Assembly (NCBI GenBank): GCA_022729795.1
Contig: DZBD01000009.1
Span: forward strand, 1 to 34,385
DNA: 34,385 nucleotides
Direction of reading: 5' to 3'
DNA from: Sulfuricurvum sp.
GTDB lineage: Bacteria > Campylobacterota > Campylobacteria > Campylobacterales > Sulfurimonadaceae
Part shown: positions 19,747-22,014 of the stretch, piece by piece
How positions within the stretch are numbered: the first letter of the stretch is position 1
How the letters are laid out: every line of letters begins with the position of its first letter
Position numbers and translations under genes: made by a program
The notes under the pieces: model-generated
Told to the model about the DNA's origin: nothing
Seen by the model: only the letters and a program-made list of their open reading frames with translations
Databases searched by the model: none

Positions 19747-19845
19747 AAGATATCCGTGAATATTTATATATTCTCTCGGGTGTCTTCGGATAAAACTTAT
19801 AAAAATCATAATATTTACTAACTTTGACGAAATAAATGAAAATTA

Positions 19846-19866
19846 TATTGACTTAATGCGTCAATA
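19846..19866. promoter_or_regulatory. Inverted repeat overlapping the -35, probable operator
   Basis: TATTGAC (19846-19852) and GTCAATA (19860-19866) form a 7-bp inverted repeat with a 7-base spacer. It covers the -35 hexamer and part of the spacer of the promoter before the recombinase-like gene. This is the position expected for a repressor site. Related TGACG words occur at 19825 and 19877. Autoregulation by the downstream HTH protein is the simplest reading but is inference. Confidence 0.5.
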
Positions 19867-19877
19867 AGTTGTACAAT
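19848..19877 (+). promoter_or_regulatory. Sigma-70 promoter of the recombinase-like gene and ccoG
   Basis: TTGACT and TACAAT are separated by 18 bases, each one mismatch from consensus. This is the only promoter in the window with a convincing -35 box. The -10 ends 41 bases before the ATG at 19919. Confidence 0.65.
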
Positions 19878-19918
19878 GACGACGAAACTAAAAAATAAAG
19901 AGGAGTTTTATCGTTATT

Positions 19919-20554
19919 ATGGTAATCGCATATATTCGTCCTGATAAACATTTTGATGCTGCTCATGATCAGTTACAACAAATAAATTCGTATGCAATAT
20001 CAAAAGAGATTATTATAGACGATGAATTTATTGACCAAATCTCACAGAATAAACGGCTTGAAGAACGCACCCATGTTACTGAATATTTTAGAAGTAAAAC
20101 GGGAGCAACTCTTTTGGTTTACGATGTCTGGGTTTTGAGTACAAATATGGAAGATCTTATTCAGATGTTTAGTTGCTTGCTCAAAAATAAGTTCAGCGTT
20201 CATTTCATTAAGCAGTCTGTAATAATATCGGAACAAAGTAGTGTTATGTTGGTGCTAGGTTTGATGGATCAGCTTCGTCAACAAATCCAAAGCGAATCCA
20301 AAAGAGTGATTGGGCGACCAATCGGAAGTAAATCAAATTCAAAATTTGATAGATATATTAATGAGATAATTGTTTATCTCAAAGAGAAAAAAAGTGTCAG
20401 TGAAATGGCACGGCTTATGAATGTAAGTAGAAGTTCACTCAAAGACTATATCGAGTCAAGAGAATTGAAGCAAGTTGCTTTTGGTTCCCTTTTGCCTCAG
20501 GCACCGGAAAACGCGGAAGAACAGGTAATAAATACTATTATCTGTCCAGATTAA
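19919..20554 (+). CDS. Catalytically inactive serine-recombinase-like DNA-binding protein
   Basis: A 211-residue protein with resolvase/invertase architecture: an N-terminal resolvase-like fold (AYIRPDKHFDAAHDQLQQINSYA, then VHFIKQSVIIS), a long helix, the hinge GRPIGSKSNSKFD (132-144), and a helix-turn-helix KKSVSEMARLMNVSRSSLKDYI (157-178). The catalytic serine of the YxRVS motif is replaced (YIRPD), and the DRLGRD segment reads DVWVLS, losing both active-site arginines. It therefore cannot recombine DNA in the usual way and is probably a transcription factor. AGGAG is 13 bases before the ATG, an unusually long spacing, and no better start codon is present. ccoG begins 26 bases after it, so control of a respiratory-assembly gene is plausible. 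Confidence 0.8.
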   Translation: MVIAYIRPDKHFDAAHDQLQQINSYAISKEIIIDDEFIDQISQNKRLEERTHVTEYFRSKTGATLLVYDVWVLSTNMEDLIQMFSCLLKNKFSVHFIKQSVIISEQSSVMLVLGLMDQLRQQIQSESKRVIGRPIGSKSNSKFDRYINEIIVYLKEKKSVSEMARLMNVSRSSLKDYIESRELKQVAFGSLLPQAPENAEEQVINTIICPD

Positions 20555-20580
20555 TTTAAATTTACATCGGGAGAAAAATT

Positions 20581-22014
20581 ATGAGTACACAGAACAAAGG
20601 CTTAGAGATACCTACACCTTGGAGAATAAAACGGTATTATTTTTATGCAATTATTACAATAATATCGTTGGTATTACCTTGGATAACAGTGGATGGGAAT
20701 CATTTTTTCCTTTTAAGTTTTGACAAACTTAAATTACACCTTGCATTTATTCAATTTGATATGCAAGAGCTTTATTTGATGCCGTTTTTACTCATGATTA
20801 TGTTTTTGGGCATCTTCGGGATGACGGTTATGGGTGGTCGTGTTTTTTGTGGATGGGTTTGCCCACAGACTGTTTTTCGTGTCATTTACCGAGATCTTAT
20901 CGAGACGAAAATATTAGGTCTTCGTAAAAGAATTAAAAACAAACAGCAAGAACCGGATATGAGCAAAACTGAAAACAAAGTGAAAAAAGTGATTGCTATA
21001 TTATTATGGACGGTTTTAGCTTTAGTCGCCGCCGCAGACTTTTTGTGGTACTTTGTTCCACCGGAAGATTTTATTGCCTATATTGCAAATCCTATGGAAC
21101 ATACGACGCTTCTTACTTTTCTTTTTGGGGTGGCTGTATTTTTGATTTATGACGTAATCTTTTTAAAAGAAAACTTTTGTGTTTATGTGTGTCCTTATTC
21201 AAGAATCCAATCTGTTCTTTATGACGACCATACGGTAATGGCACTTTACAATCCTCACCGCGGTGGCGATATTTATAACGAAGATCATACAAAACAATTT
21301 ACAAAACAAAAAGAGCTTCAGGCTTTTGAGCCCTCAGCCGAGTGTACGACATGCGAAAGCTGTGTAACTGTTTGTCCGACACATATCGATATCCGTAAAG
21401 GTCTTCAGTTAGAGTGCATCAACTGTCTTGAATGTGTGGATGCCTGTACTACGGTTATGGGCAAGCTTGGCAAAGAATCTCTTGTTACATGGTCAAGTGA
21501 TTATGAAATTATTGATCAAAAAGGCAAAACAAGATATTTTCGCCCTAAAATAGTAGCGTATATTGTTCTTTTAGTCGGAATTTCGATTATTCTTGGAATG
21601 ATGGGAAGCACCAAAGAGCATATGCTTTTAAACATTAACAAAGAAAATCGTCTTTATTCTGTACAAAAGATGCCCGACGGAACAGTTAAAGTAGACAATG
21701 CTTATGAGTTTTTACTCCAAAATACACAAAACGAGAAGTTAGAATATTTCTTTGAAGTGATTCCGCCAAAAGGGATGGAAGGTAAAATTATAATTTCAAA
21801 ACCTAATGCACCTTTTATGGCAGTTCCGGGAATTAAAAAGAAAAAAATAGTAGTTCTTAGTACGAACGCAATGCTTGTAGATGATGAGAGAAAAGATACC
21901 GTTATCCCTATCACCATCAAAGCTTATGCTTTAGGGCATGAAGATAAAATAGTAGTCTTGAGACATTCAACCTTCACATTTCCAAGAGCAGATATCATTA
22001 AAGCTGCCAAATAG
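20581..22014 (+). CDS. ccoG: Cytochrome c oxidase accessory protein CcoG (FixG/RdxA family)
   Basis: CcoG is an inner-membrane ferredoxin-like protein that helps supply copper(I) for cbb3-type oxidase assembly. It has five predicted membrane helices, the cysteine motifs FCGWVCPQ and CVYVCPYSR within membrane segments, a two-cluster 4Fe-4S domain (CTTCESCVTVCP and CINCLECVDAC) and a C-terminal Ig-like periplasmic domain (about 360-477). At 477 aa the length is normal. It lies downstream of the dead-recombinase regulator and is closed by a GC-rich hairpin; no ccoNOP or other cbb3 genes are adjacent. CGGGAG before the ATG supports the start. Confidence 0.95.
   Translation: MSTQNKGLEIPTPWRIKRYYFYAIITIISLVLPWITVDGNHFFLLSFDKLKLHLAFIQFDMQELYLMPFLLMIMFLGIFGMTVMGGRVFCGWVCPQTVFRVIYRDLIETKILGLRKRIKNKQQEPDMSKTENKVKKVIAILLWTVLALVAAADFLWYFVPPEDFIAYIANPMEHTTLLTFLFGVAVFLIYDVIFLKENFCVYVCPYSRIQSVLYDDHTVMALYNPHRGGDIYNEDHTKQFTKQKELQAFEPSAECTTCESCVTVCPTHIDIRKGLQLECINCLECVDACTTVMGKLGKESLVTWSSDYEIIDQKGKTRYFRPKIVAYIVLLVGISIILGMMGSTKEHMLLNINKENRLYSVQKMPDGTVKVDNAYEFLLQNTQNEKLEYFFEVIPPKGMEGKIIISKPNAPFMAVPGIKKKKIVVLSTNAMLVDDERKDTVIPITIKAYALGHEDKIVVLRHSTFTFPRADIIKAAK

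Follow-up and report, generated by a model that had tools for sequence, protein, structure and literature searches.

What role does a gene resembling those of serine recombinases play when it stands directly before ccoG, which encodes an accessory protein of the cytochrome cbb3 oxidase? The question arose from a 34,385-nucleotide stretch of Sulfuricurvum DNA, here called the window, for which it had been predicted from the sequence alone that a dead recombinase regulates both itself and ccoG. The host genome (2.25 Mb over 140 contigs) holds this gene in single copy. As the original prediction stated, ccoG starts 26 bases beyond its end (Table 1), and the two genes probably form one operon. Our answer, which we regard as probable on comparative grounds, is that the gene product is a domesticated, catalytically dead resolvase that would repress its own ccoG operon.

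Table 1. Coordinates in the window of the regulator gene, its neighbour and associated features
Feature	Position	Strand	Description	Basis
Operator 1	19825..19863	+	TGACGAAATAA-N17-TTAATGCGTCA; inverted half-sites (TGACG-N29-CGTCA) across the -35 box	predicted
7-bp inverted repeat	19846..19866	+	TATTGAC/GTCAATA, overlapping the -35 box and the proximal half-site	distinct from the conserved unit
-35 box	19848..19853	+	TTGACT	promoter comparison
-10 box	19872..19877	+	TACAAT; 18 bp spacer with CGTCA half-site at spacer offset 5	promoter comparison
Operator 2	19877..19916	+	TGACGACGAAA...TTTTATCGTTA, between the -10 box and the start codon	predicted
Regulator gene	19919..20554	+	catalytically dead serine-recombinase-like regulator, 211 aa	ORF, domain, family alignment, predicted fold
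Codon 9	19943..19945	+	Asp at the catalytic Ser position	alignment
Codons 71-75	20129..20143	+	WVLST, replacing the D/S-R-L-G-R active-site loop	alignment
Cys86	20174..20176	+	conserved cysteine	108/108 orthologues
Hinge	20312..20335	+	GRPIGSKS (family GRPKGSxS), expected minor-groove arm	alignment
Helix-turn-helix	20396..20461	+	residues 160-181 (VSEMARLMNVSRSSLKDYIESR)	nearly invariant in family
Cys209	20543..20545	+	conserved cysteine of the C-terminal tail (IICPD)	107/108 orthologues
ccoG	20581..22014	+	cytochrome cbb3 oxidase accessory protein (cupric reductase family)	TIGR02745, E 3e-136

A serine recombinase homologue without its catalytic residues

The regulator is a homologue of serine recombinases. 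It contains the Resolvase domain (PF00239, E 2.3e-7, above the Pfam gathering cut-off), and a profile search with the family matches Sin and the gamma-delta and Tn3 resolvases. These were reached by the profile; a phmmer search of the PDB with the single sequence returned only a designed repeat protein. The score against the Mpi invertase equivalog, 42 bits, is far below the cut-off of 272 bits. The AlphaFold2 monomer model (pLDDT 85.5) comprises a resolvase domain, a helix E spanning residues 109-128 and a small helix-turn-helix domain, and its top Foldseek matches are the gamma-delta, Tn3 and Sin resolvases (probability 1.00). The resolvase-like N-terminal domain, the hinge and the helix-turn-helix that had been recognised from the sequence are thus all present.

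Catalytic competence was assessed through an alignment of 108 non-redundant orthologues with 11 intact resolvases from Campylobacterota. The position of the nucleophile Ser10, occupied by Ser in 10 of the 11 intact enzymes, holds Asp9 in the window protein and Asp, Lys, Met, Arg or other residues among the orthologues. At the positions of Arg68 and Arg71, where the intact enzymes have Arg (or, once, Lys), the window protein has Val72 and Thr75; the family has V, T or I (mostly Val or Thr) at the former and mostly Thr, Ser or Asn at the latter. Asp67 is replaced by Trp71, although intact Mpi-type enzymes themselves carry Ser at this position (S-R-L, not D-R-L). The loss of the catalytic Ser and of two active-site Arg residues, originally read from the window protein, is therefore matched by catalytic losses in every orthologue, none of which is intact. 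Helix E is also about 14 alignment columns shorter after residue 124 than in the intact resolvases, and the family lacks the full-length form of this helix on which the synaptic tetramer and subunit rotation depend.

Other parts of the ancestral protein are retained. The active-site residues Arg7, Gln18 and Arg50, equivalent to Arg8, Gln19 and Arg45 of gamma-delta resolvase, are kept in 91, 108 and 108 of the 108 orthologues, respectively. Almost no variation is seen in the hinge, GRPKGSxSxSKFD, or in the recognition region, SRSSLKDYIxSR.

Distribution, linkage to ccoG and descent

Of the 397 Campylobacterota genomes sampled, 98, spread over nine families, have a clear relative (E ≤3e-23); beneath these matches lies a gap down to 6e-9, from where other recombinases follow. 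The named matches are Sulfurimonas and its relatives, the cultured S. indica NW8N among them. Synteny was compared at 114 loci, comprising 90 of the 98 genomes with flanking sequence and 24 named loci. In all 114, ccoG is the next gene downstream on the same strand, so that the linkage to ccoG proposed for the window holds in every relative compared and chance synteny is rejected. At one locus, L070, the ccoG in this position is a divergent paralogue with about 30% identity. Gene coordinates for five of the remaining eight of the 98 genomes give the same order of regulator and ccoG. Several genomes of two families (f8 and f11; G013, G029, G036 and G074) have two distant ccoG copies with near-equal scores, and a single regulator gene was found in each.

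The family forms a single clade in the tree (support 100/99), apart from the 11 intact resolvases, and its branching broadly tracks family-level taxonomy. Pairwise identities of the regulator and of CcoG are correlated (r 0.71), and no relative of the family occurs among 72,556 plasmid or 50,697 phage records. Taken together, these observations fit vertical inheritance of a domesticated gene. A recent mobile element is rejected by the absence of matches in the plasmid and phage records, and a pseudogene by the long open frames, the invariant residues and the conserved promoter.

A second family of degenerate serine recombinases (DLNVFGRT..., GKPKGTIQKSKFD...) is encoded at another locus in f7 genomes (L115, L117-L120, L122, L124, L125 and L130; for example, L119, minus strand, 1961-2605). 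Its genes lie near ubiX-coaD-tmk and, at two of three loci inspected, also near rplI-hslV-hslU. The proteins form a separate clade (100/100) and the genes have TAACATTTTGTATAA-like repeats upstream. This is perhaps a second domesticated regulator, a case which would suggest that dead recombinases have repeatedly given rise to regulators in Campylobacterota.

Candidate operators and their loss with the gene

The promoter of the regulator gene is conserved in 100 of the 108 orthologues, with a -35 box of the TTGAC/TTGAT type and a TANNNT -10 box, 17-18 bp apart, in 99. Half-sites of the form TGACGAWWAAA are common to the upstream regions across the phylum. The strict arrangement TGACG-N29-CGTCA is present in 51 of the 108 (at most one in shuffles, at any spacing); when common variants and gaps of 28-30 nt are allowed, paired half-sites are present in 100 (at most two in shuffles), a recognisable paired operator being missing from eight loci. 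In 99 of 108 the -35/-10 spacer contains the proximal half-site. The 7-bp inverted repeat to which attention had first been drawn does exist and does overlap the -35 box, but it is a composite of that box and one half-site; what has been conserved throughout the phylum is the larger Operator 1, accompanied by a second at Operator 2. Nor could we uphold the description of this promoter as the only well-formed one in the window, since seven sites within 10 kb score at least 10/12, and weak matches are as numerous as in shuffles. The gap within Operator 2 is 30 in the window and 29 in most relatives, and in all 21 relatives with both operators the second is offset from the first by exactly 52 bp, which would correspond to some five helical turns. 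The order, orientation and spacing of the operators are alike in relatives, by which an inverting DNA element is rejected.

Further targets were sought with an operator model, R1, built from 44 sites that included Operator 1 and a site upstream of a NifX-like gene. In the genome of the window's host, Operator 1 scores best (E 3.6e-8), followed by the NifX-like site (1.4e-5) and Operator 2 (0.018), with background thereafter; the first two had already been matched by a plain pattern before R1 existed. The NifX-like site (C39:19542-19580 in this genome; L139, 4043-4081) precedes the gene of a small His-rich Nitro_FeMo-Co protein (L139, 4176-4544), which, judged by this site, is likely to be an extra member of the regulon.

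Across 60 genomes of the genus the exact operator pattern gave 38 sites, against four with the reversed control. Inspection of 25 of these loci placed 20 at the regulator-ccoG promoter, three before a pair of genes encoding EPTL and an M48 peptidase, and two before SLAC1-DUF302. Eleven genomes share the EPTL-M48 site (L145, L146, L151, L218, L230-L232, L234, L237, L249 and L261). EPTL is a predicted one-helix membrane protein of 67-69 aa that belongs to no Pfam family (EPTL...DYxTLKGEKKxxVWAVxLAGL...PVK). SLAC1-DUF302 and an SQR-like flavoprotein are among the putative extra targets that occur in single genomes or genome pairs. In most of the genomes tested from families f10, f4, f8 and f11 the regulator-ccoG promoter is the only match or the only strong one, and two of the 22 searched have no match at all. 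Among the Sulfurimonas relatives the regulator appears from these matches to have a few extra targets.

Gene and operator are lost together. The best operator matches range from 6e-9 to 7.5e-4 in 12 Sulfurimonas-genus genomes with the gene and from 0.04 to 0.2, the level of chance, in six without it, and the paired TGACG operator was not found in the ccoG promoters of 18 genomes that lack the regulator gene. Autoregulation by a recombinase-derived factor, part of the original prediction, is thus strongly supported, at the level of sequence, by an operator that is found on the gene's own promoter across the phylum and is absent without the gene. Thirteen of the 18 ccoG promoters without the regulator (L166-L183, from the same genus and family) bear the palindrome TTATAATNATTATAA with at most one mismatch upstream of ccoG, compared with three of 900 shuffles. 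The palindrome resembles the PerR box known from Bacillus; no report of PerR boxes in Campylobacter emerged from a literature search. Control of ccoG may have switched from one regulator to another.

Mode of action, signal and known systems

From these data we infer binding of the protein to its operators, repression rather than activation, and a signal that relieves it. Dimers would occupy the inverted pairs of TGACGAWWAAA half-sites in the manner of known resolvases: the helix-turn-helix would contact TGACG from the major groove, while the GRPKGS arm would follow the A-rich minor groove. Dimer binding would obstruct the -35/-10 region at Operator 1 and the leader at Operator 2. Repression by default is likely since the two operators cover both regions of a near-consensus promoter. 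A signal received at Cys86 and Cys209, for which Cu(I), sulfane sulfur and thiol oxidation are the likeliest candidates, would then free the DNA and allow more CcoG to be made when assembly of the cbb3 oxidase requires it. On the simplest form of this model, the family would have retained only the autoregulation typical of a Tn3-like resolvase.

The two cysteines are the only ones in 65 of the 108 orthologues, and the 11 intact resolvases lack both. The most divergent orthologue (L107, 3326-3913, genome G167), the only member from family f2, stops short of the C-terminal Cys and may be decaying or sensing differently. The cysteine pair is probably a sensor of Cu(I), sulfane sulfur or redox state. 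Cu(I) is suggested by the presence of two conserved cysteines in a regulator adjoining a cupric reductase homologue. Reactive sulfur is suggested by the apparent links of some extra targets to sulfur metabolism and by the sulfane-sulfur repressors of the SqrR/SoxR type, which likewise have two conserved cysteines (PMC10451225). It is quite possible, and compatible with repression as outlined above, that reactive sulfur or oxidative stress, not copper, is the signal, ccoG then being one target of a general thiol-stress response. The SLAC1-DUF302 and SQR-like targets and the PerR-box-like palindrome before ccoG in related species without the gene lend weight to this, and the extra targets in the Sulfurimonas family do not point to copper alone; however, most families pair the regulator only with ccoG, the cupric reductase homologue.

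That the protein acts on the same sites as an activator, for example by MerR-like bending of the DNA at Operator 1, with ccoG on only when the factor is bound and loaded with signal, seems to us unlikely. The proximal half-site does lie within the -35/-10 spacer, where MerR-type activators bind, many of the promoters have an 18 bp spacer, and the EPTL-M48 operator is upstream of a less obvious promoter. Repression is nevertheless the likelier mode because the promoter is near consensus: hexamers of this quality at 17-18 bp would need no activator. Operator 2, moreover, lies between the -10 box and the start codon, both in the window and in the 21 relatives with both operators, a position suited to blocking transcription.

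That a promoter site is conserved does not tell which protein binds it, and the TGACG operator might serve some other, unlinked regulator, the recombinase-like protein being architectural or a partner of CcoG and merely encoded beneath the site. This we consider very improbable, given that the site vanishes along with the gene, that its outer helix-turn-helix box, inner A-tract and inverted pairing are the layout that a resolvase dimer would read, and that most f10, f4, f8 and f11 genomes have no strong site other than the one at the gene's own promoter. A recombinase of unusual chemistry, still inverting or resolving DNA at paired sites near ccoG, is scarcely credible, for all the resolvase fold, hinge, helix-turn-helix and conserved Arg7, Gln18 and Arg50, since it is largely refuted by the loss of the Ser nucleophile, R68 and R71 and the shortened helix E, and is opposed by the constant order, spacing and orientation of the operators in relatives and by the lack of any mobile-element relative.

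The repressor preferred here would work like an autoregulating resolvase while standing outside the active recombinases, and possibly represents a new transcription-factor family. A more ambitious reading, on which our opinion is evenly balanced, is that this is an undescribed, phylum-wide family of one-component transcription factors derived from a serine recombinase, in which the recombinase domain would serve as a thiol sensor for Cu(I) or sulfane sulfur, the DNA-pairing geometry of resolvases would have been kept for repressing a copper-reductase operon at paired operators with long gaps, and the f7 proteins would represent a second domestication. We found no description in the open-access literature of a ccoG-linked recombinase or of a dead serine recombinase acting as a regulator, and a review on respiratory regulation in Campylobacterota (PMC6682613) mentions neither ccoG nor resolvases nor recombinases. 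In Campylobacter jejuni the loss of CcoG roughly halves activity, in support of a role in oxidase assembly (PMC8267372), and the present family offers a specific candidate regulator for ccoG, and hence for cbb3 oxidase maturation, in Campylobacterota. It would also be a clear case of a DNA-rearranging enzyme long kept by vertical descent as a pure regulator, forming a single clade over nine families with fixed synteny and a co-lost operator. Genome pipelines would tend to label the protein a recombinase, masking its likely role.

Among known systems, the closest parallel is with the Tn3/gamma-delta family resolvases (TnpR), which repress their own gene, tnpR, and tnpA by binding at res (PMC7157771). 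The regulator shares with them its fold, domain order, helix-turn-helix and hinge, the inverted half-sites over its own promoter and, as predicted from these, autoregulation. It differs from them in having lost the nucleophile, R68, R71 and a portion of helix E, in its two conserved cysteines, in being chromosomal, vertically inherited and fixed beside ccoG, in the 28-30 nt between its half-sites and in having no recombination substrate. The Sin recombinase (Tn552 bin3) and the Mpi-type invertases provide its best full-length profile matches and strong fold matches but, unlike the regulator, are active enzymes.

CsoR and CueR are Cu(I)-responsive DNA-binding regulators with two conserved cysteines and small regulons. 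SqrR, SoxR and BigR are thiol-based regulators that respond to sulfane sulfur, SqrR and SoxR again having two conserved cysteines and small regulons (PMC10451225). The folds of all these proteins (ArsR, CsoR and MerR) are unrelated to that of the regulator described here, whose cysteine pair, unlike theirs, is carried by a recombinase domain and a C-terminal tail. Mobile elements have also given rise to co-opted transcription factors, Ner/SfsB and antitoxins among them (reviewed in PMC8987985), and the passages of that review consulted here do not name serine recombinases in this role. Like Ner/SfsB and the antitoxins, the ccoG-linked family would be a DNA-binding protein of mobile elements turned host regulator.
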